Translations under genes and position numbers: made by a program
Shown: positions 17,109 through 59,835 of the stretch, one piece after another
Layout of the letters: every line of letters starts with the position of its first letter
How positions within the stretch are numbered: the stretch's first letter is position 1
Assembly: GCA_020284085.1 (NCBI GenBank)
Contig: JACEVL010000080.1
Coordinates: 814,001 to 878,000, forward strand
Direction of reading: 5' to 3'
Source of the DNA: Aporrectodea caliginosa
Lineage: Eukaryota > Annelida > Clitellata > Crassiclitellata > Lumbricidae
DNA length: 64,000 nt
Notes under the pieces: model-generated
Told to the model about the DNA's origin: nothing
Databases searched by the model: none
The model's input: the letters and a program-made list of their open reading frames with translations, nothing else

Positions 17109-17178
17109 GTAAGAATTGAAGTAAAAAGTATTGTTGCACATCTTAAAGAATAAGCCTACATTTCTTACAACAAGCTTA

Positions 17179-30637: not shown

Positions 30638-32365
30638 TCGTATCGTATCGTATTTAAGCATTTGTAAAGCGCCTCTCGTATGGTGAACCGTTCAGAAGCG
30701 CTCCCAGTGTGCTAAACCCCGCGAAAAGAAAAAGGTTTTGAGAAAAGTGAAGGAAGAAGAGAGACTGCCAGAGAGAATTTTAGAGCGAACAGAAGGAGAA
30801 AGAGCATTCTAAAGAGAGGGACCAATAATTTGAAGCAAGGAACGAGGCTGAGCCATAGCAGTTCTACTACGGGGAACCAAGAGGTCAAGTCTATTGCAGG
30901 AACGAAGTGGACGGTGGAAGGGAGCTAAATGAGGTCGAAGTATTACGCCAACCAGATATTTCGGGGCAAGACCCCACCGAGCCTTGAAGATCAGAGTGAA
31001 GATTTTAAATTGTATGCGGGCATGCAAAGGGAGCCAATGAAGTTCGTCAAACATAAAGGTAGAGATATGACAGTACCGAGGAAGGCGGGCTATCAGTCTA
31101 GCAGCTGTGTTGAGGACGGACTGAAGAGGAGAGAGACGAACCTTAGGAAGACCAACAAGATGGGAATTGCAGTAGCCGATCCGAGAAAATACAAAAGCAT
31201 CAACTAAAGTAGTGAAGATGGAGGAGGAGACAGAACGACGGATGACCATGAGACGCCTCAAGTGAAAATAGGAGGAGCGTGTGAGATTAGAGATGTGCTC
31301 AGTAAAGGTAAGTGAACTATCAAGGGTAACACCCAGATCCCGAACACTTGACGAGAAAGAGAAGAGTGGGAACTTTTCAGAGAGGAGAACAAAATCAAGT
31401 TTATGGAGCTGCTGAGGGCACCACACCAGATGAATTAAGTCTTAGAAGCATTAAGGGAGAGGCGATTAGAAGACATCAATGAGTGGAGATGATTAGAGAG
31501 AGATTGAATACTCCCGACAAAAAGCAACTGCGATGAAGGAGGACCATGGACAAATGCTTGCACATCAACAGCAAAGAGATGACCAGCAGCACCACAGATC
31601 GGAAAAAGAGAAGCGATGTCAGCCGTATATAGAATAAACAAGAGAGGACTGAAAACGGAACCTTGAGGTACACCCAGTTTAACGTGGACCCATTTGGTTC
31701 TGGAGTCACCAGTAACAATCATTTGGGTTCGTTCAGATAAGTATGACCGAAGCCAACAAAGGGGAGGCCCTTAAGCCCATAAGAGGTCTCAAGACGCTGG
31801 AGAAGAATCTCATGATCAACCATATCGAAAGCTGCTGAGACATCATAGAGAGCCAGAAAAGTAAGTTCAGACCTATCAACAGCATAATAGATTTAAGAAA
31901 GTAGGGAAAGGAGGGCAGTCTCAGTGGAATGGTTAGCCCTAAAGCAGGAATTAGACCAGATTGCTCAAGATAAGGGAGAAACTGGAGAGAGACAAGACGT
32001 TCTAGAGTCTTAGAAAGAAAGGATAGATTTGAGATAGGCCGTTAGTTATTCCAAAGGTTGGTGTCAAGGTTAGGCTTTTTGAGCGAAGGAAAGACAAGAG
32101 CCCGCTTCTGCGAGGGAGGAATGCAGCCTTCAGAGAGCGACCTATTAAACAGATATACCAAGACAGGGGCAAGATCATCGAAAATGTCATTAATGATAAA
32201 ATCGGGTAGTGGATCTAGTTCACATGATTTTAAGTTAACAGACGATAAAACTGAACGAAGGTCCGACTCAGAGATAGGTCGAAAACCATCGAAGACAGCT
32301 GACGTTGAGGTAAACGCTGGAGGAGGAGCGTCAGCGGTTGAAGCACGAAGACGGTCGATCTTGTA
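30638..32365 (-). pseudogene. CR1/L2-like LINE, minus strand, decayed
   Basis: The L2-type tail (minus: AGAGGCGCTTTACAAATGCT) lies at 30650-30680. Frames 31426-30809 and 31722-31435 give MIVTGDSRTKWVHVKLGVPQ, GSVFSPLLFILYTADIA (the Q-G-S RT block), RDLGVTLDSSLTFTEH and FDELHWLPLHARIQFKI. The YADD motif has changed to FAVDVQAF. It is the same family as 48025-49507. The upstream part reads into 32365 with several stops. Confidence 0.85.
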
Positions 32366-32564
32366 ATCTTACGTAAGAAAAATTGATAGTTAACGACAGT
32401 AATTACAGTAAAAATTGCTTGTCGCCGGGCTCAATAGGGTCGCAGCTTTCTTGGCATCAGTACTTGCATGTTAAGCATTGAATCCACGTTTCTTCGTGTT
32501 GGTCGCTTTAAACTGTAAAGCTCTCTGCAGAAAGAACAGTGGAAGCTGGTGTCACTCTCCACTT

Positions 32565-35563: not shown

Positions 35564-35873
35564 AAGATAACGGTGAATATGGCGAAGACTGGCCTTTACG
35601 AGATAGCGAAATTTCAATACTTACTACTAATCAGGAAAGTTTGGTTGATCTTCTGGAGTTGATCGATCTACTTAGTCTTCTGTATTCTTCGAATGTCATT
35701 AACAAATTAAAGGCAAATGGATTCAATTTCCTCAAAGCAAACTTCGCACGCCAAGAACGATGAACTGCTGAACAATTTGCGAAGACGAAGCCTACGTGAT
35801 TACAATATCACAATAAAACACCTTTATCACACAAAGCAAAGTCACATTGCCAAACTATTCGCACACGGTGGAG
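35564..35873 (+). pseudogene. CARD exon 2, with a single-base frameshift
   Basis: The acceptor CTTGTGCACTGTTTTCAG ends at 35563 (phase 1) and the donor GAG|GTAGGA is at 35874 (phase 1). The CARD helices are clear: QESLVDLLELIDLLSLLYSS, VINKLKANGFNFLKANFA, then after a one-base frame change DELLNNLRRRSLRDYN and HIAKLFAHGG. The shift lies at about 35752-35761 (…CGCCAAGAACGATGAAC…), where one base is missing relative to the expected frame. Either this exon is dead, or the assembly has an error there. The flanking splice sites are intact, which points to a recent event. Its likely 3' partner is the terminal exon at 39164. Confidence 0.72.
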
Positions 35874-37341
35874 GTAGGAATTGTACCTTGAACTCATAGG
35901 CTACATCGTAATGCGTGCAGGTTTTAGTAAAATGGTGTCTTCGTTGCAACTCTCATTTAAAATTTAGCTAGTTAATGAAATTGCAGAAATTACTAATAAG
36001 TTCAATTATATGCACTAAACGGATTATATTTGGCATTTATATTATCTCTATTCTCTATGTATAATAATTTGCGACACATTGTACTATAGCGCATTTTAGG
36101 TACTTCTCAGACGTCAATTATATTCAGGACCGTCTCCGTGTACTGTCCCATCAAAGCCAAAGTGCGGGTTCAGCATGAAGTCGATTGCTTCTAAATTGTG
36201 TAGCATTCACCTAACAACATTTTTCTAGAAGATGAGTCATTTTCCGGTTACTGCATAAATTCATATTTCAGTTGTCACCAGTCATATCTCGAAAAGCAAT
36301 ACCTAGTCCGATTATGCTAAGTGTTGATATTGAATCGTTATTGATAGGTCAACAATGATATCCGTTTGATTAAGTTGACTGTCTTTTCCAAAAGTAGCCT
36401 ACAGTTTCATCTGGATCGAATTAGCTAACGTCCATTCAATAGCAATGCACTTTTCAGTAAGCAGGGGCGGTTCATACAAAATCACCTAGGAGCCCCTTCT
36501 CAGCGCCTCGCCTCGTTTCATAGGCTAATCTAAGCGCCTAAAGAACCGCTTTCTTTTCGCTCGCTTTTCCACCAATCATTGTGCAGTATCGCAAGCGCCC
36601 TTTTTCCCGCGTAAATTTCCACCAATCACAACAGTTCGCTCTATTTGGCTTCTGCGTTCATTTCGGTCTATGCCAGATTTATTTTTATTTAAGTTTGTTA
36701 CATTTATTTCATTTATGATAGATATTCAATATCAAGTGATTGGTAATTAAATCGTTCCTTTCCGTCTCGAAATTTGTCCCTCTTTTGAGTTGCTCCCTGT
36801 GCCATGGCACCGCTGGCACACCTTCGCTACGACCATGTATCGTATAGTGTGAATCAATAACGTTTCAATATCAACGCTTAGCATACATGTAATCAGACTA
36901 GGTATTGTTTTTCGAAATGACCGGGGACAGCTGAATTATGAAACCAATGCAGCTGACCGAGCAGAGTCAATAATCTTAAATAAGAAGATGCACGCAGAAC
37001 TACGCTACCCAGAGAATGTTTGATGTGTTAAAACCTGCTGACTTCAAAACCAGATATACCGCAAACATAAAGTTGTCATAATCTGTCAGTGTTTGATAGC
37101 AGAACAACAGTTCCAATTATGAACTACGTGAACGTGATTTCTTGAATCTGACAGGTTCTTCTGCCTCATGATGGACTAAGCATTTTATATTCAAAGTCCA
37201 GATTGCAACTCAGCAAACAAAGATGCAAAATAGATTTTGCCACTGGGTGTTTCCATCCTTTGTTTCTTTGCAAATCAACCACCCATTCCTTACAACCTTT
37301 CCACAAGTAAAGCTGCATGACAGCGTGTCATTCTTTATTAA
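35874..37341. other. Intron, no gene recognised
   Basis: Non-coding. Short inverted string CAGGGGCGGTTCATAC near 36463 might be a hAT-type end, but I could not find its partner. Confidence 0.4.
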
Positions 37342-37582
37342 CCCTCGGGCTACCAAGGGGGGGGGGGTGGTTGCCACCCCCCTAGGTTTTTATGCATAAA
37401 AAATTTTTCCGTGTGGAATAAAATTTTTGCAAATTAAGTAGCTGTAGCAGATTCATTGGTGCACATTTTGAGGTAAACATTATGGTGGTAGCCCACGCCA
37501 TTCAAAAGTTATACCCAATAAAAACGAGGCACCAGGGGGGGGGTGGATACCACCACCCCTAGATTTTCAACTATATCTTATC
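37342..37582. mobile_element. Possible TTAA-type terminus with G/C hairpins
   Basis: TTAA (37338-37341) is followed by CCCTCGGGCTACCAAGG and a perfect hairpin GGGGGTGGTTGCCACCCCC (37362-37380). A similar hairpin GGGGTGGATACCACCACCCC follows at 37540. The TTAA-CCCT start plus subterminal GC hairpin parallels the elements at 46141 and 58428. I found no matching right end. Confidence 0.35.
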
Positions 37583-37597
37583 CCTCATTTAATATTA

Positions 37598-38265
37598 AGA
37601 GACACAAATTATACCATTCTATAGAGGGAATGTGGGGCTTCATTTGCATACTTAAATATTTTTCTTTTGAAAACCGGAAGTGATCAAAATAAATAATAAT
37701 ACCCGTAATATGCGTGAAAAATGGCCGAATGGAAGGACTCCCCCGTAGTTTTATATCTGTAGCGTATTCAGTTTTCTTCCCAGAAGAGAAACAAATATAC
37801 CATTCTTTAGATGGAATGTAGGGATTCATTTGCATACTTAAATGTTTGTCTTTTGAAGTGATCAAAATAAATATTAATACGCGTAATCTGTGTGAAAACG
37901 GCTGAATGCAGCATTGTAATGTATGCATGCATACATGTACATGTATATATGTATGGATGCATATTTATACGTATATAAACATGTGTAGGTATGTATATAC
38001 GTATAAATATGCATCCATACATATATACATGTACATGTATGCATGCATACATGTACAATGCTGTATTCAGCCATTTTCACACAGATTACGCGTATTATTA
38101 TTTATTTTGATCACTTCCGGTATTCAAAAGACAAAGATGTTGGTATGCAAATGAAGCCCTACATTCCCTCTAAAGAATGGTATCTTTGTTTCTCTTCCAG
38201 GAAGACAAATGAATACGCTACAGACAAAAAACTAAGGGGGGAGTGCTTCCATTCAGCCATTTTTA
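37598..38265. repeat. Large palindrome (arms about 260 bp, short loop)
   Basis: Arm 37722-37978 is matched in reverse complement by 37990-38262, with a spacer of about 12 bp near 37984. The inner 100 bp (GTATGCATGCATACATGTAC… and the mirror) is nearly perfect. The outer part carries TAGCGTATTCAG, CATTTGCATACTTAAAT and TTTTGATCACTTC strings on both sides. The left arm is also partly duplicated in direct orientation at 37598-37720. A hairpin or cruciform could form. Confidence 0.9.
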
Positions 38266-38271
38266 CCGGAT

Positions 38272-38368
38272 AAATTTTAGAAAATTGTCAACAGAAGCAA
38301 ACATCTATATTGATTTCTTTTTGGTAAAATCAATGCAGAAGTGTTCCCTGCTATCGAAGATGTCAATT
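38272..38368 (-). repeat. Dispersed repeat shared with 3945-4035
   Basis: The reverse complement contains CGATAGCAGGGAACACTTCT and GTTTGCTTCTGTTGACAATT, matching the stretch near 3945-4035 with about 80% identity by eye. Class unknown. Confidence 0.6.
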
Positions 38369-39163
38369 CAAAAAAAATTAGTTCATGAGTAAGTTAATAA
38401 AAATCATATAGAGCAATGGATATATGTTAGTTAATGATTTAAAATTTATAAAACATCAGTACAGCGCTTCAACTGTTACCCTAACGTAACATTGAATTGA
38501 CGCTCCATTGGAAAGGACAATGCAATTTCGGGTTAAAATTGGACTTTATAATTTTTTATCTCACACTAATTATCTAAATAATATAACAGAAATAATTTTT
38601 AAAACTAATTTATGTCCAATGATGTATTTAAAAATTATAAATTATAATTTTACACTTTGTGTAAGCCGCCGAAAGGAGAAGACGGAAATTTATCTAATTT
38701 GCCTCCGGTTGTGAAATATACCCATATAATACCGGGATACACCGCAGTTGATGATGATAATAATTAAGTGAACGGTCAACAAGCGGATTAGCATGCAGAG
38801 TGAAGGGAGAGGACCAGGTGCCGAGTGTAATGATAACAACACAGATCAACGATTCAACATTTCCACTTCTGTGTAAATTCTTTTATGTGGACAGACTTGG
38901 AAGGATCGTGCAAGGAGTGAAAAGAACAGTGACAACTCAGCCTGTCGGCTACAACCTTCAGTCACGTTGAATAAGTCATTCCCAGCCATTGAGCCAGATT
39001 TTACGGTAAATTTGCCCTGTAAATGCTCTCCTGTTAATGTGTTGTGTTTATCATTATTTATTGTATAGCGTCTCCTAAGAACATGGGCGCTTTCAGCATA
39101 AGCGCCCAGAGGAAATTTATTCTCGCGCAGTTATTGGCTTAACCTGTTTGTGATTAATTATAG
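38369..39163. other. Intron, no gene recognised
   Basis: AT-rich and non-coding up to the acceptor at 39162-39163. Confidence 0.4.
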
Positions 39164-39435
39164 TTGTTGTAAGAGTTCATGCTAATCTGGATGAGGAGAA
39201 CGTCGACGAGGCTGATAAAGAAATTGCGACAATGATGGCAGACATTCTCATCGAAAAGTCAGTTGAACGAAGAAATAGAATCCTTGGACTTGTTCCAAAT
39301 TTAATTGCCGCTAAGAAAGGTCAAAGCATCGTTCTCTATATCTACTGTAAGACCATCGAAGAACTACAAGAACTACACGAGTCGCTGACCACAGGACGAC
39401 TCAAGGATTCCGTTGAACTGTGCTTCAAGGCCTAA
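39164..39435 (+). CDS. Terminal exon, TRADD-N-like domain (copy 2)
   Basis: The exon opens after an acceptor (GTGATTAATTATAG, ending 39163) in phase 1, matching the phase-1 donor of CARD exon 2, and closes with TAA at 39433-39435. The protein shows DEADKEIATMMADILIEKSV, RNRILGLVPNLIAAKKGQSI and VLYIYCKTIEELQELHESLT, then GRLKDSVELCF. The pattern 'G-S-I-V-L-x-I-x-C-x-T-x-E-E-L-x-E-L…S-G-x-L' is clearer here than in the other two copies and resembles metazoan TRADD-N-like domains (inference). About 90 residues. It would be the C-terminus of a CARD-TRADD-N protein; an upstream frameshift in its CARD makes function doubtful. Confidence 0.68.
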
Positions 39436-39449
39436 GACTAAAACCGCTT

Positions 39450-39530
39450 AACAATCGAATACGAATTATATATATATATCAACCTAAGGAACACCTGTGC
39501 TCATTATATATGCAAAACATTTGTTCACAG

Positions 39531-39565
<35 letters not shown>

Positions 39566-40394
39566 TGTATGTATGTATGTATGTATGTATGTATGTACGT
39601 ACGTATGCATGCATGCATGTATATATTTGTATATGATGTGTGCATATGCATGTATGCATGTACTTGTATAATTATGTAGGGATGTATACTAGTATGTATA
39701 TATATGTGTGCATTTGTGTATGCCTGTACATATGGATGGATGGATGTACGCATGCATGTATGTATGTATGTACGTATGCATGCATGTATATACTTGCATG
39801 TATGTGTGTATATACATTTACGCATGTACATGTATATATGCATGGATGTATATTGGTATGTATTTATATGTGTGTATATATATTTTTGTATGCATGTATG
39901 AGTGTATGTATGTATGTATGAATGCATTCAAGTTTATATTTTTATGTGTGCATATGCATGTATTCATGTACATGTAGCCTATATATGTAGGATGTATATT
40001 TGTATGTATGTAGATGTGTGTGCAATGCACTGTGCATTGATGGATGTATATAGATATGTATGTATGCTTGTATGTATGTATGTATATATGTATGCATGTG
40101 TGTGTGTATGTATGTATGACATGTGTGTATTTGTGTATATAGCGTATGTCATAGTCAATGTTACAGCCTGGGGTCTGATTGACCCCAGGTGTGCTAAACA
40201 TGCCCCGAGTGTCATTCTTATTTTTTTATCATTGAACCTAGAATTGTAAACTCTTAGAATTTTTCTACATTATGTAGAGGGATGAATTGCTGAGGAATTT
40301 GAATTATTTCAGATTTTTACTATTTGTATCAAAGCAGCTATTCAAGGAAGTTCCATCGATGGAGTCTAATTGACCCTAGGTTTGCGTCAAATGG
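39450..40394 (-). mobile_element. TTAA-type element (inverted copy) with TATG microsatellite
   Basis: The right end, CCATTTGACGCAAACCTAGG in reverse complement, is a diverged version of the ends at 46141 and 58428, followed by TTAA (40395-40398). Inside, in the same order but reversed, are GGAACTTCCTTGAATAGCT, AGTAAAAATCTGAAATAATT and the hairpin TGGGGTCTGATTGACCCCA (40171-40189). A (TATG)n array (39535-40130) fills the rest. The left end is not clear. It lies between the TRADD-N-like exon 2 and the SH3 exon. Confidence 0.7.
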
Positions 40395-40470
40395 TTAACT
40401 TAAATATGGCACTAGTCGGAAATGATTGTGTTTAGCATAATGTCTCTAATGATGCGAATGTTTCTTCCAG

Positions 40471-40651
40471 AAAAACTTAAGCTGCGCGCAATTCATGACT
40501 TTTACCCAGATCAGATGACTATAAAAGAGGCAAAGGAACTCCAGAATATACTCGACAGAGGAAGAGTACCAAGGCAGAACAGAGCATACACGGTGGCGCG
40601 TAAATTTAAGAGAGGAGAAAAAATGGAGGCAATTTCGTCCACAAACATCGG
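40471..40651 (+). CDS. SH3-domain exon, N-terminal part
   Basis: The acceptor GCGAATGTTTCTTCCAG ends at 40470 (phase 1) and the donor GG|GTAATT at 40652 is phase 2. The protein reads KLKLRAIHDFYPDQMTIKEA, then AYTVARKFKRGEKMEAISST. 'F.+GE.+E.I' is the RT-loop to n-Src part of an SH3 fold. The second half lies in the next exon. SH3 domains bind proline-rich peptides and assemble signalling complexes. The ALYDY motif is replaced by AYTVARKF, so this is a divergent member. The first 35 residues before it are of unknown fold. Confidence 0.72.
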
Positions 40652-40984
40652 GTAATTATATATTATGCGAGACAATTTAGAACATGAAACATATTAGAAT
40701 ATTCTTCTCCAACTGTCTTTCACTATAAGAAGCGGCCGTGCAATGGATAAATTGCTGATGTTGTGCTTAGCTACATCAAAATATGGCCATATAATCTTTG
40801 ACTAGCGATGGATTACTTAAGATAGGCACTTATATAACACCAGAACTTTAATCTGTACATGGCTTTCTCTAAGCAAATAATCTCTTTTTAATTTAAGCTC
40901 ACAGGTTACGAGGGAATGAACTGTGTAACCATCCACAGTATTAAGAACTATTCCTTCATTCATCAGTCATATAACTAATCACAC

Positions 40985-41240
40985 AGGTGATCTGATTGCC
41001 TTTCTCTGGATATTCCTGAAACTAGAACGGTTGTTGGTTAACGAGTTTTTTCGGTTGCTGGACCTGGATATTGGAATCCCCTCTCTGTATTTGTTCGCTA
41101 TATTTAATCATTTGTGTAGCCTAGTTACCATAATCTCTGGCTAACACTGATCTCCGGATTGTTTACCTGATTGCGGCTAGGTTACGTTGTTGCATAGATT
41201 GATTCTTTGTGCACTATATACCGGCTCTATTTAAGTAACT
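40985..41240 (+). pseudogene. CR1/L2-like LINE 3' fragment in the SH3 intron
   Basis: GATCTGATTGCCTTTCTCTGG…ACGAGTTTTTTCGGTTGCTG encodes the same SDCL.L...RT...ERVFSVAGP.. end as 30027-30345. It is about 250 bp, decayed, between the two SH3 exons. Confidence 0.75.
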
Positions 41241-41277
41241 TATTAACAATGCTAATTAAATTTCACGGCTTTTGCAG

Positions 41278-41357
41278 TGAGACGGACGGGTGGTGGAAGG
41301 TGAGGCATTTGGACAGTGGAAAGATCGGATTCATACCAAAAGATCGCGTTGTAATCG
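41278..41357 (+). CDS. SH3-domain exon, C-terminal part
   Basis: The acceptor TTCACGGCTTTTGCAG ends at 41277 (phase 2) and fits the phase-2 donor of 40651, making a Gly codon at the joint. The exon reads ETDGWWKVRHLDSGKIGFIP and KDRVVI. DGWW and GFIP.DRV are the diagnostic SH3 blocks (the WW pair, the 3-10 helix Pro and the final strand). The donor ATCG|GTAGGC at 41358 is phase 1. This is the most secure domain call in the window. Confidence 0.88.
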
Positions 41358-41765
41358 GTAGGCCTAAGTGTCAAAGGTGTCGCTATCATAGATTTGGAAC
41401 TTAAGAATATTCTTTGGTTGACCAGTGTAAGATGAATGTTTGCTGGTAGGTTGCTAAACTAGGTTTGAAAAAATAGCCTGCTCTTTGTAAGTAGATAATC
41501 GGATAAAATATGTTAAGCATGCAAATACTCGATGCCAGAAAGTTTAGTGTTGGATTGTTGTTGGCTGCTGTTGTTCAGGTTATTTTTTGGAATACCGTAC
41601 CAATTTCTATATCAGAAACCAATATTGTTTACCTTTTGCATCGACTAAAACCTCTAATGTAATTAAGATGATTACTGGAAATTGTATTATTTATAAAGTT
41701 AATACACAGTATATTTTACAAATAACATTCCATAAAATATCTTCCCATTGGTTTATTTTAAACAG

Positions 41766-41794
41766 AAACCGATCATCCGCCTTCTAAGACAACG
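41766..41794 (+). CDS. 29-nt linker exon
   Basis: A good acceptor (TTTATTTTAAACAG, ending 41765) and a consensus donor ACG|GTGAGT (41795) bound 29 nt. In phase 1 it gives ETDHPPSKTT and ends in phase 0, which is the phase of the next exon. A PP-containing hinge is a reasonable link between domains. It is a prediction from splice sites and phase alone. Confidence 0.5.
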
Positions 41795-43051
41795 GTGAGT
41801 TGTAATACTGCTTTATATAACTGATTCATTGCAAATATAAGGCCTTTGTAAACGACTTCGAAAAATGCCCTCTTTTGTATTTAAAATATTTTCGTATATC
41901 AGCCTCACTTTGAGACATGAAGCAACAGATTTGATTAGGTTTTGAAGCCAGGCTGATAAAATAAATCTATTCAATTGTATCTCATCAAGCGCCGAAAAAT
42001 CATCTAGTCTCTCTAGGTATAGTTTAGAATACACTAGTCTTGCAATGTTATATTTATGGCATTTACTCTAGAAACGATGCGTTGTGAAAATCGATTAATA
42101 AAAATCGGGTTATACGATAAATCGTTTTCTTAATATTTTATTTACAATGTGTATTTATCTATTTTTATCGTGTACTTTCATGTTGTGACACCTGCAGCGT
42201 GAGCTAATATTATGACAAAAGCTCTTATTTTATCTGGTAGCATAATTTTAATATATCGTCAACCCACGCTCTCAGATTGCAAAAAACGTTTAAAGAGGTA
42301 AATTGTGTCTACTTCAATGCGTTTTGACCGCGTCTCCTAAACTTGGTTAATAAGCTTTCAGGACCAACAGATTCACTGACGACCCTGACTTTTCTGTTTG
42401 GTTCTTGTCTGGAAAGCTTTACTATTAAATCTGATAATTGTGGTTTGGGAAGCGACTCAGTGCTAGCTAGGTCTTTTGCTTTTCTTATACCAATGTCAGA
42501 GCTGATACAGAGTTGAAGAAAGCCATAACTTTGTCTCACGCCTAGATTTGAAGTCTTGCCAAAACGGCAGTCTCTATAAAAACTTATCAGATGTACGGCT
42601 TCAAAGTCAAGTGATTAGCCTATTAATGCGAGGCAAATAAATGCAACAATAAATCTTTAAGTTAAGCTGAGGCAAAATTCTACGACTTCGTTAGTAATTT
42701 GCCTTTGTCCTGTTCGCCGCTGAAACCGCGACAGGCCTAAAAATCCTATTCCCTATGCGTGACAAGTGACCCAATTTATCGAGCCATTTGACTAAATTCG
42801 TAAGGTTCCAGGTTGACAGAATGTTCCTAACAATTATTGTAATAACGAATCAAGGCCCAATGAGGTATGATGCTGAGAAACGCGCGAAATAAATGAGACC
42901 TCTAAATCCTTAATGCTTTAGTATTATTAAAGTTTAAGCAACCTGCAGATGGCTTTTTTTAGTACTGTCACTGTAAACACGTGTAGAATTCTCTCCCAGT
43001 TATTGCGCATTTTAATGTTTTAGCGTGCACAATTTATTATTAATTAATTTT

Positions 43052-43340
43052 TTATTAGGTCTGCTCAACGATTAAAATTTTTAATGGCGATTAATTTTGT
43101 GATTAAATATATTAATGAGTAACAATGCAGATAGAAAATCCTGACATTGTTTTCAGTTTGTTCAATTTTGAATGAAATAATTTATATTAAGAATTATCAG
43201 GTTCATCCAATGTTTGTTTTTTGCAAGTCCTAAGACTTTTGGCTTCGACATTACCTGGCGTATTGCAATGTTCAGTAGTTTAATCGCGATTAAATATTTT
43301 AATCCTGTTAATCGTCCAGAAATATATAGATGGCTCTGAA
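43052..43340. mobile_element. Probable hAT-type relic (GATTAATCGCG inverted strings)
   Basis: Left: TCTGCTCAACGATTAAAATT; right, reversed: AGCCATCTATATATTTCTGG followed by ACGATTAACAGGATTAAAAT. The inverted similarity spans about 50 bp but is imperfect, and I see no clear target duplication. Confidence 0.35.
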
Positions 43341-43756
43341 CAATTTCGATGGAAGGATTTGCTCAATGTAGCCTATCTACACATTGACCGACGTATTAGA
43401 TGGCGATCGGTCAAACTAATCTGCGACCGTGATCCACACTCGAGCACTCGAATTTGACGATTAGCTTTTAAACATTCGAAATTCGAAATGGTCTTATGCA
43501 TGCACTGTTATTCAGTTTATTACCGGTAATGTTTAAGAACAACTCCTCATTATGTGTCAAAATATAATTGTGACAAGAGAAAAAATTATTTGCAATACGA
43601 TTGCACTTTAACTTACTTTCACCGAAAATTTCGGTCTTGTAAATGCGAGACGATAATATTCTTTATTGAAACAATCCGGTTGACAGACCGCAACCGGTTA
43701 CAATGTACAGTTATGCAATTGAAACAATTCAAAAGAACACAATTGACAGAAGACAA

Positions 43757-43870
43757 AAATCTTAACTACTAACAGAACAGACAGCCTGCAATACATGGCG
43801 CTAAAAGAATGTCCGCCAACGGAGCTCGATTTTGGTACCTCTCGCTCTCTATGCCAATGCGCTACCGGGC
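43757..43870 (-). mobile_element. tRNA-derived SINE, minus strand
   Basis: Reverse-strand box A/box B-like strings (TAGCGCATTGGCATAGAG and GGTACCAAAATCGAGCTC) and the body CAGGCTGTCTGTTCTGTTAG match the SINE at 54842-55035. Box B is more damaged in this copy. Confidence 0.65.
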
Positions 43871-44083
43871 TTCCCGTTATATGCTTTGCACATTGTTACT
43901 TGACTTTTAATGAATAATTCTATCAATGTTTTCACCTTTTGGTCAGTGATGACTTTCTGAAAGTCATCCATGACTCGATTTGAAAAAGTTTCTTCTGGGA
44001 CGAATTAGTAGAATTAGTAAATCACTTAATTAATTAGAGTCACTAAATCGATAAAGATTGCATTCAGGTTTTTTTATTGTTAG

Positions 44084-44270
44084 TTGAATGAACTTCCATT
44101 AGAGCTGTTGGACGTCGTCTTAGAAAAGTCGTTTCTGTATTGGATACTGAATCCTTTATGCCACCAAAGAGACGAAGATGTCATCAGTTCTTTGGCATCA
44201 GTAGACTTCTGTTGGTTTCAACGAATAACAAGACCAAGATTTAAGAAAAGAATTTGGCGTCGACTCAAAG
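44084..44270 (+). CDS. F-box-like exon
   Basis: The acceptor TTTTTATTGTTAG ends at 44083 in phase 0, matching the linker exon. The protein begins LNELPLELLDVVLEKSFLYW and ends SLASVDFCWFQRITRPRFKK, RIWRRLK. 'LP.E.L..il…L.sv…W' is the F-box pattern, a helical module that recruits SKP1-cullin ubiquitin ligases; this sequence has an unusual insert (NPLCHQRDEDVI) between the helices. I call it F-box-like only. A donor AAAG|GTTCAT at 44271 gives phase 1, which fits CARD exon 3. If unspliced there, a stop follows five codons later (44285). Confidence 0.5.
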
Positions 44271-45131
44271 GTTCATTGCTTCTATAGTACATTGATAACC
44301 ATAGCCACTATGCTTATAGAATAGTCACGATTACTGGTCATACAGCAAGAGATTATGAGTTATGAGTAAATTTTTTCTGATGTTAGAAATTTAGCATTTT
44401 ATCAGTCACATAATATTTCGAATCTCAGAGCCGGATTATGGGTTCTTGAGACCCCTAAGCACAATTTAGTATGGACCCTCCCCTTCCTCACCCCAATGTC
44501 GTAGGGGCTCTAGTTGCGTGTTGAGCATCCATATGGAGTGCAGGAGGAAGTCCAAGCCGCCAACGCTTTTCCTCCCAGTCATCTCCTAATATAGAGCTCA
44601 TTGGATGCCAAATCTTAATGTAAACGGACAAAACATCTACTAAAGAGACGCTTCGTCGGATAGATTCATTAATGCTGAGAAGCCCTTATACAACTGCTTA
44701 TGCGTCAGTCCGGGTCTGCTGAAACTGTAGAACTGTGCAAATAGCGCATTTATTGTTCCTCGTCACTTGAGTGCAAAACACAACAGAGCTTTGCTATTGA
44801 TTGCATCGATCTAACCGCGATTTAAATGTCGTAGTAGGCTATATAATTTTACATTCGCATCTTTTCACCCAATGTGTATGAATATTGACGAGGTTTTTTC
44901 TCTTGCATGAATCTTAAAAATATTTTGATAACAAGAAATATAGACATTAGCCTTACAGGTGTATTATTATGTATTTTTAGATATGAATCGACTTCATTAT
45001 CTTTATACAATCAAAATCCAGCAGGCAACGAAGTTTATATTTATTTCGTTCAGAATGTTTCCCTAGTAGCCTAATAACATTATAACAAAGCTGCGGTGTC
45101 ATTCAAAAGCAATTTTAGTTTTGATTTTTAG
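44271..45131. other. Intron, no gene recognised
   Basis: Non-coding between the F-box-like and CARD exons. Confidence 0.45.
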
Positions 45132-45476
45132 ATTTCTATGGAAAAACCAGAAAAGGTTCTGCAATCGTTAGAAACAATCGAAATTATCTCTTGGACAATA
45201 TTCAATCGAATTACAAGTTAGTTGCTTCGATGTTGTCTTTCAATTGCATAACGGAAAAGCAAAGAAACTTTATACAACGACAACGCTCAAATTGCAACGA
45301 TAACAAAAAGAAAGAACAAAGTCACTTCATTCAACGATTACGTTCAAAACAAGATAAGAACTCCGAGATTTTACACCAGATGAGGTCTTTCGACGAGACA
45401 ATGTATTCCAATTTCGTCAAATGTATTCGGCAAACGAACCAGAAGACTGTTGCAAGGATCATGGAAAACGGAGGAG
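45132..45476 (+). CDS. CARD exon 3
   Basis: The acceptor TTTTGATTTTTAG ends at 45131 (phase 1) and the donor GAG|GTTAGC at 45477 is phase 1. The helices read IVRNNRNYLLDNIQSNYKLV, ASMLSFNCITEKQRNFIQ, SEILHQMRSFDETMYSNFVK and TVARIMENGG. The order and spacing match CARD exons 1 and 2, including the N-G-G before the donor. The middle of the exon (RQRSNCNDNKKKEQSH) is longer and more basic than in a standard CARD and looks like a partial internal repeat (F-I-Q-R-x-R-S twice). The likely 3' partners are 50177-50565 or 51959-53289. Confidence 0.75.
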
Positions 45477-46140
45477 GTTAGCAATCTAAGCTTTATCTAA
45501 AGGACAATGCGTTAACAAAATTTGAATATTAGAATACTACCTTAACATTTATATCGAATTAGGCCTACATCAAGAACATTCCTAGACATTTTATAAATAA
45601 TTCCGTATTTTATAATCAATTATGTCCTATCCTGTTGGGTAGCCTACTTATCAATGCAAAATTAATTATCACGAAAACACGTTAAAAAGTCTTATGATAT
45701 CGGTATTATGTGGATCTAGAGCCTCATGTAAAAGGTCATACATGTAACGGTATACATTTAGGGCGACCTTGAATTGTGAGGAAAAGTTAAAGAAGCATTC
45801 TGGCCACAATGTGGAAAGTGAGCTCCGATGGAAGTGGAAGCAACAGTCAACAGGCGTGCATTTGGCTAAATAAGGAAATTATTTAGATGCTTCTCTGCGC
45901 CTTTAAATAATATATAAGTTTTAAGTATTATTTTAAACCTGAAACTGCAACACTGGTCCATGGTGTTTCGTGGCCTAACATCGTGTTCCTTTTTTGACTT
46001 CTACTTTCATGTCATCTACAGTTCATTATGCCAGGTCAAATATTTATGATCAGCTTAATCTTTTCAGCCCTTTGTTCCAAATCCAAAGAGAGCGTAATTT
46101 TAGTGCTATTAGTTTTAAGTGTCCTTAATCTTAATCTTAA
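45477..46140. other. Intron, no gene recognised
   Basis: Non-coding up to the TTAA target of the piggyBac-like element. Confidence 0.45.
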
Positions 46141-46439
46141 CCCTATGACGCACACCTGGGGTCCATTGGACGCCATTAATGAAACTTCCTTGAATAGCTA
46201 CGTCGATACAAATAGTAAAAATCTGAAATAATTCAAATTCCTCAGCAATTCATCCCTCTACATTTATGAATTAATTGGAAAAGTTTAGTATTCTTGGTTC
46301 AATTATAAAAAAATAAGAAAGACACCTAGGGCATATTTAGCACACCTGGGGTCCAACAGACCCCAGGCTTTAACATTGATAGGCCCATCGACTATCACAT
46401 ATTCCAGGCTATGTTACATAGAAAGATACACACATACTT

Positions 46440-47016
46440 ACATACAAACACATGCATACATGCATACATAGTACATACATACATACATACATACATACAT
46501 ACATACATACATACATACGTACATACATACATACATACATACATACATACAAACAAGCATACACACATACAAACATCCATTTATAAACACATATATATAT
46601 ATACATCAAAAATATATCCATACATGTATACATGTACATGCATACATTCACATGCACACATACAAATATATACATGCATAAATACATACATACATAGATA
46701 CACACATACATAATAATATTCAGACATGCATGCATACACACATATATATATACGCATATATATATATATATATATATACAAACTAATATGTACATGCATA
46801 AATGCATATGCATTAAGCACACATACAAATACATACATACATACATACATACACACATTCATTTAGACATATCTTCATACATGCATTCATCCATAAATGC
46901 ATACACACATACAATAATTACATACATACAGACATACATACATACATGCATGCATATATACATAGATACATAAATACATACATACATACATACATACATA
47001 CATACATACATACATA
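46440..47016. repeat. (ACAT)n microsatellite, left block
   Basis: Imperfect ACAT/TACA repeat with TATA and TGCA interruptions. The same repeat resumes at 49508-49800. Open frames of YIHTYIHT or VCMYVCMY type are artefacts. Confidence 0.97.
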
Positions 47017-48022
47017 CCGGGTGGGCCATTAAAAATGAGAACATCGCGTTCAATCGTGTTTAATACAATATCAGATTGTGTTTTGAGTAAATCTTTAACA
47101 CGTAAATTATTCTATGATGTCCCTACTTACCAAATCAAGCCAGTTCGACGTATTTTGAAGAAAGATTTACAACTTAAAGCGTACAATCGTGTGATGGGGT
47201 AGGTGATAACGAAGGCTGTAAATTAAACGCCTGCAACGAAGTCAGCAGCTCCCGGTATTTGAAATGTTTCCTAACAAGAGAATTAAGAGCACGAAGCATT
47301 TGGTTAACAGAAGAAAAGACATTTACAGTTGCCACACCAGTCAATATTATTTTCAAAGTGATCATGTTTATTCCGAGTAAGAAAGAAAGCAAATTCCAGC
47401 AACAAGACTCGTATGCGAACGTGTACATTTCAGTCATCATGGTTTCGGATGTCGACGACTCCAAGATCCTTGGTTTCGGTCGGTGTGCCTCGGATGGAAA
47501 AAACCAATGTAGTGTTTGTTGGACCCGAAGTCAAAGTAAGCAGTACATACTATTGTGATCACGTTCTAGAAAGAGGTTTACTTCCTGAGCAAGATGTAAT
47601 CGTCACAATTGGACGTTGCAGCAGGGCGGAGCTCCTTCAGACCAGCCAGATCAAAGCACTCAACTTCCATCATCAGGAGAACCTTCATCGAATTAGACGT
47701 GTGGCCTCCAAATAGCCTAGACCTAAAACCCGGTAGACTATGCTGTTTGGGGTGCCCCGTAAACAAAAGTCTACCTTCGTCGTAAATTCACAACAAACTG
47801 AAGTTGAGGAATGCCGAAAAATGTCCCAGAGATTTATAGACATGAGCATCATTATAACGATCGCGTGGCACAACGTTTAGAAGAAATTGTTGAAAACCGA
47901 GGCAGACACATAGAATATAAAATTTTGCAACAAATTACTTGCATTTTGAAAAGAAAAAAGAAATTAATTATATAAATAATTAAGCTTGAACGTGATGTTC
48001 TCATTTTTAATGGCCCACCCTG
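47017..48022 (+). pseudogene. Mariner-like element with decayed transposase
   Basis: Inverted ends C(C/A)GGGTGGGCCATTAAAAAT… of about 36 bp with two mismatches, flanked by TA (47015-47016, 48023-48024). In pieces on the + strand I read RSIWLTEEKTFTVATPVN (the first catalytic block, with Glu where Asp is normal), VSVGVPRMEKTNVVFVGPEV and TYYCDHVLERGLLPEQDV, then HYNDRVAQRLEEIVENRGRH near the C-terminus. These are the Tc1/mariner DDE landmarks. Frameshifts and stops have killed it. At 1.0 kb it is shorter than a full element. Confidence 0.85.
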
Positions 48023-48024
48023 TA

Positions 48025-49507
48025 CATTGCCTTTCCTTCGCTCAAAAAGCCTAACCTTGACACTAACCTTTGTAATAACTATCGGCCTATCTCAAATCTA
48101 TCATTTCTTTCTAAGACTCTGGAACGTCTTGTCTCTCTCCAGTTTCTTCCTTATCTTGAGCAATCTGGTCTACTTCCTGCTAACCAGTCTGGCTTTAGGG
48201 CTAACCATTCCACCGAGACTGCCCTCCTTTCCCTACTTTCTGAAATCTATTCTGCTGTTGATAGGTCTGAACTGACTCTTCTGGCTCTCTATGATGTCTC
48301 AGCAGCTTTCGATATGGTTGATCATGAGATTCTTCTCCAGCGTCTTGAGACCTCTTATGGGCTTAAGGGCCTCCCCCTTTGTTGGTTTCGGTCATACCTA
48401 TCTGAACAAACCCAAATGATTATTACTGGTGACTCCAGAACCCAATGGGTCCACGTTAAACTGGGTGTCCCTCAAGGCTCCGTTCTTGGTCCTCTCTTAT
48501 TTATTTTATATACGGCTGACATCTCCTCTCTTTTTCCGATCTGTGGTGCTGCTGGTCATCTCTACGCTGATGATGTGCAAGCATTTGTCCATGGTCCCCC
48601 GTCATCGCAGTTGCTTTTGGTCGAGAGTATTCAATCTCTCTCTAATCATCTCCACTCTTGGATGTCATCTAATCGCCTCTGCCTTAATGCTTCTAAGACT
48701 CAATTCATCTGGTTTGGTACCCCTCAGCAGCTCCATAAACTTGATTTTGCTCTCCTCTCTGAAAAGTTTCCCCTCTTCTCTTTCTCGTCAAGTGTACGCG
48801 ATCTGGGTGTTACCCTTGATAGTTCACTTACCTTTACTGATCACATCTCTAATCTCACACGCTCCTCCTGTTTTCACTTAAGGCGTCTCAGGGTCATTCG
48901 TCGTTCTATCCCCCTCTATCTTCACAACTTTAGTTCATGCTTTTGTTTTTCTCGGATTGACTACTGCAATTCCCTTCTTGTTGGTCTTCCTAAGGTTCGT
49001 CTCTCTCCTCTTCAGTCGGTCCTCAACACAGCTGCTAGACTGATAGCCCGCCTTCCCCGGTACTCTCACATCTCTACCTTTATGTTTCACGAACTTCATT
49101 GGCTCCCTCTGCATGCTCGCATACAATTTAAAATCCTCTCTCTGATCTTCAAGGCTCAGAGGGGTCTTGCCCCGAAATATCTGGTTGGCGTCCTACTTCG
49201 GCCTCTTTCAGCTTCCTCCCATCGTCCACTTCGCTCCTGCAATAGACTTGACCTCTTGGTTCCCCGCAGTAGAACTGCTATGGCTCAGGCTCATTCCTTT
49301 ACTTCAATTGGTCCCTCTCTTTGGAATGCTCTTTATCCTTCTGTTCGCTCTAAAATTCTCTCTGGCAGTCTCTCTTTTTTCTTCGCTTTTCTCAAAACCT
49401 GTTTATTTTCGCGGGGCTTAACGCACTGGGAGCGCTTCTGAACGGTTCACCCTACGAGAGGCGCTTTATAAATATTTAAATACGATACGAAAAAAATACG
49501 ATACGAT
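48025..49507 (+). pseudogene. CR1/L2-like LINE, 5'-truncated, RT and 3' end
   Basis: The long frame (48314-49441) reads MVDHEILLQRLETSYGLKGL, RTQWVHVKLGVPQGSVLGPL, GHLYADDVQAFVHG (YADD active site), RDLGVTLDSSLTFTDHISNL, FHELHWLPLHARIQFKI and SRTAMAQAHSFTSIGPSLWN. The upstream RT part (48027-48310) is one frame off (motif A: LYDVSAAFDMVD). It ends with GGCGCTTTATAAATATTTAA and (ATACG)n. The YADD site is intact but the endonuclease is missing, so it cannot move by itself. It is very close to the minus-strand copy at 30638-32365. Confidence 0.93.
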
Positions 49508-49625
49508 ACATACATACAGACATACATACATACATGCATGCATATATACATAGATACATAAATACATACATACATACATACATACATAAATACATACTTA
49601 CATACATACATACATACATACATAG

Positions 49626-49673
<48 letters not shown>

Positions 49674-49800
49674 CATACATACATATATACATACATACAT
49701 ACATACATTGATGCATATATAGATACATATATACATACATACATACATACATACATACATACATACATGTATATATACACAGATACATACACATGTACAT
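49508..49800. repeat. (ACAT)n microsatellite, right block
   Basis: Continuation of the array at 46440-47016. The first 60 bp (49509-49568) repeat 46921-46980 exactly, see findings. Confidence 0.97.
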
Positions 49801-50176
49801 ACTATTATTCCCGTGTTATCGGCGGGGTCTATTAGACCCCAGGTGTGCTAAATGTGTTGGCCAGGAAGGTGTGCGTCATAGGGTTAACGAGACAGTCTAC
49901 CTTAGCGCTTAGAAAATACCTGGTCAATTTCTCTGAAAATCATACTCATGTTTGTAATGAAAAGTTCAATTGCATATTCTGCGAATCGATATCAAATATC
50001 TAATTTTAGACATTATATGAGAATAAAAACCGAATTGGTCATGTAGGCTATCTACAAAATAAATTTTTTTTTATCTTAGTTCGTAACCCAATTTTATTTG
50101 ATTAAATTCAAGAACAGTTGACTGGATTTTCGTCTAAGAAATTAGTTTTATATTTGAAATACGTTTTTGCCTGTAG

Positions 50177-50565
50177 AAGTAACGAAAGTTGAAGTGCATT
50201 ATCGGAGTGTGAAGTGTACAACATCCAGGGAAAAACAACTACTTTTTCATAAAAATATCGAAGGCCTTCGAAACCGAACCAAACCGTGGTCATATCAAAC
50301 TGATAAACTCATTAGTCAACTGAAGGAGGAAGGCAACGAAATTCTTAACTCTCAACTGGACAGACAGACTGTGGTCGTTTGGATCTGGTGTCATTCACAA
50401 GCAGGCCTTGATCATTTTCGGAGAGTGTTCGAATCGAATCAGCTGAGAGATGTCTTATTTGGTGTTGCAAATATTCCTGAAATTGACCAGTCGAAAGTGA
50501 TCAACATTGATAGCAATCAATTCAAGAAAGCAGTTGGCAAGTTCTTAAAAACACACTCGTTATAA
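50177..50565 (+). CDS. Terminal exon, TRADD-N-like domain (copy 3)
   Basis: The acceptor ACGTTTTTGCCTGTAG ends at 50176 in phase 1 and the frame stops with TAA (50563-50565). It reads HKNIEGLRNRTKPWSYQTDK, LISQLKEEGNEILNSQLDRQ, TVVVWIWCHSQAGLDHFRRV and FESNQLRDVLFGVANI. It matches 518-900 nearly residue for residue through LNSQLDRQTVVVWIWCHSQA. AATAAA at 50687-50692 would close the transcript. In context this is the C-terminal module of the SH3/F-box-like/CARD chain. The TRADD-N-like label is an inference from its strand-helix pattern and its death-fold partner. Confidence 0.7.
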
Positions 50566-51958
50566 AGGAAAACTTAAAACATGAATTTTCCTACATGTAT
50601 AGTGAAATGTCTAACAATGCGCTATTATTAAAATCAGCAGGATACTCAAACTGACGATAAAAGCCGTCATTTTCGATTAATTATAGAATAAATTAAATTA
50701 GAGACTCGGCCGATAGAGAGAAAGACTCTCAGAGGGCGCTGTATTAATGTAAAACTACTTGACTTCAAGTAGCCTACTATTGATAAAGTGAGACTAAGGC
50801 AGCAGAAGAAATCAGAACTAAAACACTGAAGTTAAGAGTAAAAATGCAGAGAAGCAATAAAGAGGCATACACTGAAATCGAGAATAAGTTAGAAAGACGG
50901 AGAGTGAAAGAATGAAAAGATACAGACATGAAAAACATTGACAGGATGATAATAATATTGGACATTAACAAATTCAAGCTATTCGCCAGATGGTAAACCA
51001 AGCGAGGAAAGAGAATGGATGGAAACTAATTGGACAGTTTGATTAACAATAGAGAGAATTGTATGATTATTAGCAGGTTGGCCGTGCAAACCAGCAGTAA
51101 ACAGAGTCAGAACGAGACAAAGATAGCGAGAGAGACTAGAAAAATACAAGAGTCAAGTCAAATGTAGAATGATTCAGCCAATCATGGAATCGGAATCAGT
51201 TATGAAGCAAGAGAGTTCATCATGATACAAAGCTTAGAGTAAAATCCCAGAAATGATTATGACTTATAAGATTGTAATAAGACTGAAGCATAATTATGGC
51301 AGCTTAAATTAATTGCGTTTAACAGACAGATGAAGAGCGATTGAGCTGATGAGGCAGTTACAAAGAGAGAGTTAGACGAATCTAATCTAAAGACTTCTAT
51401 AGCGCCTTTATATTAATACACATGGCAACGATTGATGACGTCTTCAAGGACGAATGTAGTCCAAGTAAAAGTCCATTAGAAGACAGATACAAACAGAGAG
51501 TAACAGGTGAACAACGGAGGAGATCGAAAGGCAGTTAGAGACAAACAACGAATCAGGTCAGCAGATAAACAGCAACAAATGAAAAATTAATTACAGACAA
51601 AAATAAATAAATATAAACAAACATACAGCAATTTTTTTAATGCTCCTAATTCTACTTATAGTATGATAGAAACAATTATAAATAAACAGCTATTAATATA
51701 ATTTTGTTTTTATTTTAGTCTTAAATTGAAGTAATTGAATGGGCAAAGATTTGTCAGATACTAAGTAGATAATTAAAGTAAAAGCTACAAAAAATAATGA
51801 GAACGAAGAAATAAATAATTGACAATTAACCAAAAATTATTGCAATTTTTATTAATATGGTATTATATAAATAAACTAACATTCACTGTCCATTATTAAG
51901 TCAATTGTCTGTATCATAACAGGTTATCAATATCGTAATAATTTTGTTTTTATTTCAG
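50566..51958 (+). other. Intergenic or intronic, homologous to 901-2431
   Basis: Non-coding, purine-rich, with AATAAA at 50687-50692. It parallels the interval in copy 1 in length (1393 against 1531 bp) and in scattered sequence. Confidence 0.5.
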
Positions 51959-53289
51959 TCATGCGTCCGATTTCCATCAACTTCATTCAGGCAATCGACA
52001 TCGGAAGAGATAGTGATGCGTGGGGACTTACTAAACTGCGAAATGAAATCTACGTTTTCTGCCATCTGTATTCCTCTGGTCCAAATGTAATTCGTGTCTT
52101 TGAGGATCGAAATCCATTTAATCTTCAGAAGATAATCAAAATAAAAGGGATTAAAGGTCCCGTTGACATTGGATCCAGTGAGAAGGAAAATTGTCTCTAC
52201 GTCTGCGACTATAATGAGAAATGCGTCTGGAAGATGACAAGAGATGACGAACAGAAAATCATCAAATGGCTGATCCTTGATTTTAAGCCAACTACTCTGT
52301 CAGTGTCCACTGATGGTCGGTTGTTATTAGTCAATATATCATCGTCCTCTCTTATGATCTACGGATCCGACGCAGAACTTATTCGATCCATTCAGTTACC
52401 AGGAGACATCACGAACCTTTATCGCGCAGTGGAAACATCCATCGGGAATTTCATCATCAGTTACGTAGAGAAGTTGGAGGAGGAGGTGGAAGAGGTCGAG
52501 GAGGGGGACAACGAGGAGGAGGAAGAGGAGGAGGAAGAGGACAAGAAGGAGCGGGAGGAGGAAGAGAAGGAGGAGCAGATGAAAGAGGAGGTGAAGGAGG
52601 GGGAAAAGGACGAAAAGCAGGAGAAAGAAAAAGGGGGAGACAGTTGGTCACGTGGAAGAAATTCAATCAATGTGGAGAAAGAGGAAGAGGAGGAGGCAAC
52701 AGAGGGAGAGGTGGAAGAAGGGGAGAAAGAACATATGGAGGAGAAGAGGGAGGAGAAGGAGGACGAAGAGTTGGGGGAAGAAATAGAGGGAGAGAGTGGG
52801 TCAAATGGGAGAAATTCGATCAAAGCGGAGAAAGAGGAGAAGGATGAAGATGAGAAGGAAGATGGGAAGGTGGAAGAGGGAGGAAAGAGGGATCGAGTGG
52901 AAAAGAAAGATAAGAAGAGTGGGTCAAGTGGGAGAAAGAAGAAGATACATTATGACACATTCGCCGTAAGTGAATTTACCAGAGATGGACAGATGATTAT
53001 TCGTCGTTTTGTTCCTTCAAATGAAACCAGAAAACTGAATTCTGTTTCGTATCTCTCACTCGAATCAGACGATCGAGTGTTTGTGGCTGACTATGGCAAT
53101 TATGACAGCAGAGTGATTCTCTTGGATTCCGATCTTAAATGGAATCGAATTCTTTGCCCAACAAAAAAAGAAACAGAAGAAACGAAGATCCAAATGCCAC
53201 ATAGATTATGTTACGACGAAGAAAAGAAACAACTGATCGTCGGAGATGTATACTGTGGAGTTAATGTCTACACTTTGAGTCGAAAATAA
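51959..53289 (+). CDS. NHL-type beta-propeller terminal exon (copy 2) with an acidic insert
   Basis: The acceptor TTTTGTTTTTATTTCAG ends at 51958 (phase 1); the first ATG is 51961. Blades match copy 1: LTKLRNEIYVFCH, NVIRVFEDRNPFN, IGSSEKENCLYVCDYNEKCV, LMIYGSDAELIRSIQL, LSLESDDRVFVADYG and LILDSDLKWNRILCP-type strings, ending NVYTLSRK. Between blades, residues about 163-325 are a Glu/Lys-rich insert absent from copy 1. It contains three related units with S.GRNSI..EKEE. Such a charged loop would extend from the propeller side. Either this exon is spliced to an upstream phase-1 donor such as CARD exon 3, or it is a separate gene starting at 51961. Confidence 0.72.
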
Positions 53290-56839: not shown

Positions 56840-58015
56840 GAAACATTCGAATGTTATGTAAGCAAATATTTAAGTTCGCTTGGACCTGAAAAGTCACTCG
56901 AGTTCATACTGGAGATAAACCATAACAGTGTGAGAGGTGTCCAAAAGCGTTTGTATTCCAACCTGACCTTGAGATTCACACGAAAACACATACAGGAGAG
57001 AAACCTTTCCAGTGCCAAGTATGTCAAAAGCGTTACTTCCAACATTCCAATCTAAAACGTCATGCAAGAATTCACACTGAAGAGAAGCCAGTCATGTGAC
57101 TTTAAAACAAAATATAAAAGAGCCATAGAAGAAAAAATACTGGAGAGAAACCATACTCGCATTACGAATTCAGTCAGAACCCATACAGGTATGTCAGAAA
57201 GCATTCTCAAGCGCTTCAGCCGTGAGAAGTCATGAAAAATTCCACCCTGGACAGAGTCCATTTCTGTGTCAGATGAGCCAAAAACAGTTTCCAACAGCTT
57301 TCGCATTACAAATCCATGTCAGAATCCATACAGGGGAGAATCCTTTCCAGTGCCAGATGTGTAAGAAAACTTTTCCCAACAATTAGAATCTAGCAAATCA
57401 TGTTAGAATTCATTCTGGAGAGAAACCATTTCAGTGCGAGCTATGCCAAAAAAATTTCGTCATTATAGCAGTCTGCAGTTCCATGTTAGACTCCATACCG
57501 GAGAAAAGAGTTACCAATGCCAGGTATGTAAAAAATGGTTTATAGATTCTTCCAGTCTACAAACACATATAAGATTTCATTCTGGAGAAAAACCATACAA
57601 ATGCCAGTTATGTATGTATGTATGTATGTATGTATCTGGACATTTATAAAGCGCCTCTAGCAGTAATGACTATTCAGAGGCGCTTCCAGCGTGAGCACTC
57701 CGAGGAAACAGAAAGGTTTTCAAGCAACGGACAGAGGTGGAAAAACCACCTGCCAAAATCTCAGCCCGAATTTTTTGGGGAAGGTTGTTCCACAAATAAG
57801 GATCCACAGTTGCAAAGGCGCGGCGTTGAGCAATGGCTGTCCTGGTCCGGGTTATGTCTAAAAGTTATGCCTAAAAGTATTTGCACAAAGATGAAATATA
57901 GTAGTTCACAAGAGAACACATACTGGGGATAAACCCTACCTTTGCCAGGCATGTCAGAAAACATTCGCATTCTCTCCAGTTCTGAAACATCATGAAACAA
58001 CTCACTTTCTATAGA
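56840..58015 (+). pseudogene. C2H2 zinc-finger array, decayed
   Basis: At least eight finger remnants on the + strand, such as [91 protein letters not shown] and (after an insertion) CQACQKTFAFSPVLKHHETT. TGEKP-type linkers join them, as in DNA-binding KLF/ZNF-type arrays. In-frame stops (for example near 56915 and 57100) and frameshifts show it is not functional. A LINE 3' end is inserted at 57611-57890. Whether this was a host gene or a zinc-finger carried by a transposon cannot be told. Confidence 0.82.
57611..57890 (-). mobile_element. LINE 3' end inserted in the zinc-finger array
   Basis: The + strand runs (TATG)n, then CATTTATAAAGCGCCTCTAG, an L2-type tail read in reverse. The minus frame has PDQDSHCSTPRLCNCGSLFV-like remains of the AFS..GP..WN.LP C-terminus. 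It splits a finger after CQLC. Confidence 0.7.

Positions 58016-59801: not shown

Positions 59802-59835
<34 letters not shown>

Follow-up and report, generated by a model that had tools for sequence, protein, structure and literature searches.

A predicted gene with SH3, F-box-like, CARD-like, TRADD-N-like and NHL exons in series, from a large family in Aporrectodea caliginosa

Families that combine Death-like and TRADD-N domains with variable C-termini, beta-propellers among them, are described by Kaur et al. 2021 (PMC8195603) as having expanded in marine animals that are sessile or form aggregates, with 357 proteins in Amphimedon. Expanded families of CARD-bearing sensors are also reported from an early animal, namely the NLRC-type CARD sensors of the sponge Dysidea avara (PMC12909245). 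We compared such systems with a locus of Aporrectodea caliginosa that lies in a window of 64,000 nucleotides (C79:814001-878000 of the 1.098-Gb assembly; C-numbers denote contigs, and positions given without a contig are those of the window). The locus, at 40471-53289 of the forward strand, is probably one gene of a massively expanded family, in which a split SH3 domain, a micro-exon and F-box-like, CARD-like, TRADD-N-like and NHL exons would follow each other in series, and its product would serve as a cytosolic immune sensor or adaptor.

All seven exons lie on the forward strand. SH3 is encoded in two halves, the first with an internal insert (40471-40651, phases 1/2, donor CGG|gtaatt) and the second at 41278-41357 (phases 2/1). 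These are followed by a micro-exon of 29 nt (41766-41794, phases 1/0), the F-box-like exon (44084-44270, phases 0/1), the CARD-like exon (45132-45476, phases 1/1) and the TRADD-N-like exon (50177-50536, phases 1/1), which is internal in our model and ends at the donor of a GC-AG intron (G|GCAAGT at 50536/50537). The terminal exon (51959-53289, with a TAA stop at 53287-53289) codes for an NHL beta-propeller that is interrupted by a long acidic linker of low complexity; this E/K-rich linker occupies 52474-52944 (+), and its length differs strongly between copies. Each exon is open in its frame and preceded by AG, and GT is found at the five internal donors named in a preliminary description of this DNA, whose exon borders and phases were borne out in this respect. 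When joined, with the TRADD-N-like exon ending at 50536, the exons give an open chain of 836 residues up to the final stop. The introns measure 408-4700 bases. An in-frame ATG at 40458 is shared with the copy on C369 described below, and the gene may start there or else in a further 5' exon. The longest intron, between the CARD and TRADD exons, contains a LINE-type reverse transcriptase frame (48011-49438, +).

The series goes beyond what chance would give. All seven exons recur in the same order at C369:42544-53100, where protein identity is 69-96% for the six longer ones and the micro-exon aligns. The first SH3 exon has its copy at C369:42544 (69% identical) and 20 further match rows in the genome, and the second has its copy at C369:45623. 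The micro-exon and the F-box, CARD, TRADD and NHL exons are also present together at C31 and at C79:912246. The micro-exon keeps its 29 nt and its AG/GT borders in four of four aligned copies, and the borders of the F-box, CARD and TRADD exons keep AG and donor in the loci compared (plus-strand loci only; one partial extra F-box match in one locus is not a border).

Matches to each exon were counted in the genome. The figures are match rows and not gene counts, and those for the CARD, TRADD-like, F-box-like and NHL exons are lower bounds. There are at least 263 matches to the CARD-like exon (best 150 of 521 candidates) and at least 150 each to the TRADD-N-like exon (best 150 of 404), the F-box-like exon (best 150 of 402) and the NHL exon (best 150 of 1621), together with 63 matches to the SH3 exons, for which 135 of 135 candidates were scored. 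Exon order was then read from the nearest listed neighbour within 8 kb, after CARD rows that were second pieces of a listed exon had been dropped and 126 kept. Among the matches listed, the F-box-like exon is followed downstream by a CARD exon on its own strand in 67 of the 69 cases with a neighbour (81 of 150 have none), a TRADD exon likewise follows CARD in 80 of 80 (46 of 126 have none) and an NHL exon follows TRADD in 75 of 76 (74 of 150 have none). The second SH3 exon stands downstream of the first on the same strand wherever a neighbour was found (18 of 18, with three of 21 lacking one; two rows of the second exon are each shared by two rows of the first). For 41 rows of the second SH3 exon, the nearest listed F-box within 12 kb was downstream in 17, upstream in six and absent in 18, and never on the opposite strand. 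The copies share ancestry, so these counts are not independent. Taken as a whole, they indicate that the exon chain is very probably a single cassette gene, a member of a very large family that has been duplicated many times over and whose copies are both clustered and scattered. One tandem copy lies upstream on the same contig: its CARD exon falls outside the window (C79:808356), its TRADD-N-like exon (518-886, +) likewise ends G|GCAAGT, and its NHL propeller exon (2432-3318, +) has a short acidic linker. The NHL exon of the C31 copy (C31:916787) has an early stop, and at least one copy is thus apparently decaying.

The end of the TRADD-N-like exon bears on how the two C-terminal modules are related. 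The preliminary description took this exon to be terminal at 50177-50565, as one of two alternative 3' ends. That view overlooked the GC donor at 50537, and the stop at 50563-50565 lies beyond the donor in sequence whose frame is not kept from copy to copy. We compared the exon end in 25 copies. The donor is kept in every one, as G|GCAAGT in 22, G|GCAAGC in two and G|GTAAGT in one (24 GC, one GT); the single plain GTAAGT copy is at C238:347144-347444. Before the donor, 20 copies have the same length as the window, two are longer by 12 and three shorter by 3, all of which is frame-keeping. After the donor, the frame of the window is lost in 20 of 25 copies, and that of the commonest length in 11 of 25. 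Pairwise differences average 0.136 over the 60 columns before the donor, 0.039 over the first six bases after it and 0.201 over the next 60. A GC-AG intron is indicated after this exon because the donor is kept, and because length changes preserve the frame before it and break the frame after it. By this comparison the TRADD-N-like exon is internal and joined to the NHL exon via the GC-AG intron, as phase 1 on both of its sides implies, so that both C-terminal modules would stand in series in one protein. As for the single transcript proposed before, with SH3, F-box-like, CARD-like and NHL parts, the copies speak well for it through their shared order and strand, their splice sites and phases and the constraint on them; the alternative endings are not supported.

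Constraint along the chain was measured as dN/dS between copies, with the locus that is the window itself and three loci inside longer stretches dropped, an exon coverage of at least 80% and pairs of dS 0.02-2. Median values were 0.30 for the F-box exon (16 copies), 0.30 for CARD (21), 0.46 for TRADD (17) and 0.77 for NHL (four); the first SH3 exon gave 0.88 from a single pair. Values below 1 were found in 116 of 119 F-box pairs, 210 of 210 CARD pairs and 132 of 136 TRADD pairs. In the three closest complete copies, dN/dS was 0.11-0.22 for CARD, 0.18-0.27 for F-box, 0.58-0.83 for TRADD and 0.72-1.07 for NHL, and by this measure the F-box-like and CARD-like exons are more constrained than the propeller in these copies. 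The contrast is small in the three pairs with the distant upstream copy, because CARD reaches 0.49-0.72 there against 0.64-0.80 for NHL (TRADD 0.42-0.48). A conserved front and a variable propeller would fit a sensor with a diversifying ligand end; the NHL value comes from four copies, does not clearly exceed 1 and cannot separate relaxed from positive selection.

The domain names are of unequal standing. The NHL identity is firm at the level of sequence profiles: Pfam NHL scores 26.4 and 28.1 bits in the two window copies (cut-off 20), and a profile of the exon matches, in PDB, designed Pizza propellers (5e-22), PknD (2.3e-12), Brat (about 2e-7) and TRIM2/3/71 (4e-7 to 3e-5). SH3_1 scores 25.2 bits in the joined window halves, over the cut-off of 22.9, and 20.3 bits in the C369 copy, under it. 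CARD stays just under its cut-off of 23.9, with 21.4 bits in the window and 21.5-23.1 bits in four further copies. It is the best match in each of the five, one of which covers profile positions 3-83 of 85, and the upstream copy has a nearly full-length match at 21.5 bits. The profile check proposed earlier was therefore positive for NHL and SH3 and fell just short for CARD. The F-box and TRADD-N names come from motif resemblance, and neither domain was recognised by the family models used. The conserved pattern of the F-box-like exon is like that of an F-box whose first loop is longer. In a profile-profile comparison, none of 60 shuffles reached its score of 16.3 (shuffle maximum 16.1), the alignment being of 12 columns only, at a probability of 5%.

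Several results weigh against the series of domains as we read it. The CARD profile finds no CARD in PDB: its 13 matches at E<=1 are all DNA gyrase, the best at 0.39. No Pfam F-box match was obtained in 14 members (E<=5; HMMER filters drop most matches above 0.1), and the best other Pfam match was DUF6895 in four of the 14, at 0.014. The 14-member profile does not recognise an F-box in PDB either, where it gives one match, a coumarate ligase at 0.63; an earlier 8-member profile had matched Crov588 at 0.0014 in scattered weak pieces, which was not reproduced with 14 members. TRADD-N was recognised neither by Pfam in 49 members, where the commonest weak matches are Sigma70_r1_1 (17 of 49) and Anoctamin_N, an alpha-beta plait model (11 of 49), nor by the PDB profile search. 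PF20694 (TRADD-like_N) has no match in the genome, and none in control genomes either, so that this is not proof of absence. A 33-column segment aligns with the TRADD N-terminal domain, with a score that was reached by 16 of 60 shuffles. The TRADD-N identity is thus a lead only. In a genome search across the TRADD-NHL junction (best 150 of 537 candidates), no processed copy was recognised: most listed rows end near the junction, and a few span it weakly, for example C916:863582 (59%) and C1341:15787 (55%).

Other explanations of the locus have to be weighed against one gene with all modules in series. The TRADD-N-like and NHL exons might be alternative last exons of one gene, given that every one of the 25 copies has an in-frame stop within 29 codons after the donor (12 have it at codon 15), that one frame after the donor is common to 14 of 25, and that GC donors are reported as enriched in alternatively spliced genes (PMC2490688). 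Against this, the stop is found at eight different distances, length differences are multiples of three before the donor only, the donor hexamer is the least variable part of the region and one copy has a plain GTAAGT. Alternative 3' ends were rejected on this comparison of the exon end, and we regard them as highly unlikely. One may also think of two or more adjoining genes, such as an SH3-F-box gene, with or without CARD, and a TRADD-N-NHL gene, each with its own start and kept together by duplication. The chain is read from genomic sequence, 75 of 150 NHL exons have no TRADD exon within 8 kb among the matches listed, and no SH3 exons were found upstream of the copies at C31 and C79:912246, so that some members either lack SH3 or have it at a greater distance. 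The CARD, TRADD and NHL exons, however, start behind an AG acceptor, and their borders agree in phase 1. Moreover, no start is kept at the head of the NHL exon, because the ATG in the window is GTG in both the C369 copy and the upstream copy. Separate genes are therefore very unlikely in our view.

It is also conceivable, and we judge it unlikely, that the family has no immune role and reflects fast, near-neutral gene amplification with decaying copies and a propeller without ligand recognition. The early stop in the C31 NHL exon, the apparently broken frame of a CARD and TRADD-like gene further upstream (35564 and 39154) relative to its relative, and NHL dN/dS values near 1, not clearly above it, in close pairs would all agree with such a process. 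The low medians of the F-box and CARD exons over 16 and 21 copies do not, and an internal stop is present in only four of 150 listed NHL rows, in a search that favours intact copies.

The preliminary description had let the chain begin at 35564. One gene from this point was rejected, since neither the exon at 35564 nor that at 39154 is matched within the 40 kb around the C369 or C31 copy. A CARD-like piece (35564-35899, +) and a TRADD-like piece (39154-39435, +) have a relative at C79:902705-904642 and appear to form a separate gene of similar flavour; Pfam recognises neither piece. The frame of the CARD piece looks broken because it differs by four bases in length, by eye, from that relative. 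A further CARD-like exon at 16832-17116 (+) scores 23.1 bits (cut-off 23.9) and has relatives at C79:894625 and C31:900434 that are 61-63% identical. Mobile elements are represented by a LINE-type reverse transcriptase frame at 30812-32368 (-), which is an antisense relative of the frame at 48011-49438, by another at 27053-30016 (-) that comes with an endonuclease frame, and by a MULE transposase frame at 9678-10655 (-; 32.6 bits, cut-off 27.6). C2H2 zinc fingers are found at 57129-57383 (+; zf-H2C2_2, 49.3 bits, cut-off 40). Tetranucleotide repeat tracts of the ACAT/ATGT type occupy 39536-39595, 46472-46551, 46974-47017, 49628-49766 and 58763-59831, one of them lying some 0.9 kb ahead of the SH3 exon and another some 0.4 kb ahead of the TRADD exon. 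The tRNA and Rfam scans of the window found none.

In the mechanism that we propose, binding of a ligand or target would fall to the variable NHL propeller. Homotypic assembly of the CARD-like and TRADD-N-like domains would relay the signal, and the SH3 and F-box-like parts would recruit partners, possibly SKP1-CUL1 and so ubiquitin. More speculatively, the weak GC donor might permit intron retention and thereby a short form without the propeller. A bolder and still doubtful version is a receptor system of its own, with well over 100 genes that each join a diversifying NHL propeller, a CARD-like domain and an F-box in one chain, where recognition would activate a death-fold scaffold as well as an SCF ubiquitin ligase and the conserved weak GC donor would act as a switch that can drop the propeller. 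If the proposal holds, this would be a death-fold immune family with an NHL propeller as its variable part, in which CARD signalling might be linked directly to ubiquitin ligation. The family, with its many copies of one conserved architecture, offers a natural experiment on the diversification of innate sensors, and the conserved GC donor poses a precise splicing question. The case also shows that exon phases, taken by themselves, can wrongly suggest alternative ends.

A protein database search gave 11 matches to the chain, all on the NHL part, 73 to the TRADD exon and one to the F-box exon; inspection by eye of 11 NHL, 18 TRADD and one F-box match found no second domain of the chain. The literature searched, outside of which lie most subscription journals, gave no description of a set of SH3, F-box-like, CARD-like, TRADD-N-like and NHL parts. 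Among the known proteins, those of the TRIM-NHL type (Brat, TRIM2/3/71) share the C-terminal NHL propeller, as seen in the profile match, and would share a link to ubiquitin ligases if the F-box-like part works. They differ in that the scanned exons of our locus showed neither RING nor B-box, CARD-like and TRADD-N-like exons being present instead, and in that its propeller is split by the acidic linker. FBXW7 is an F-box and WD40 propeller protein and shares an F-box-like part ahead of a propeller in one chain. Its propeller is WD40 and not NHL, it has no CARD, and the F-box here is a motif match only, with an extra stretch between its parts.

The Dysidea avara NLRC-type sensors (PMC12909245) have in common with our locus an expanded, CARD-bearing sensor family, whereas the exons that we scanned showed neither NACHT nor LRR; the terms TRADD, NHL and F-box are not present in the main text of that report. 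The closest likeness is to the NCOA6 clade expansions of Death-like and TRADD-N proteins in Amphimedon, Crassostrea and Branchiostoma (PMC8195603), in which a death-fold domain is followed by TRADD-N and then by a C-terminus that evolves fast and is in some cases a beta-propeller, with very many copies in a single animal genome. The order and the copy number agree in our family, with a putative TRADD-N, since none of the models used recognised the domain after the CARD-like exon as such. The family differs further in its NHL-type propeller and in the SH3 and F-box-like part in front, and the main text of PMC8195603 has no mention of F-box or NHL. If the exon after CARD is a TRADD-N, the family would be of the same kind as these expansions. 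It most likely represents lineage-specific immune sensors that resemble the TRADD-N expansions seen in marine invertebrates and have a domain set that appears to be new.

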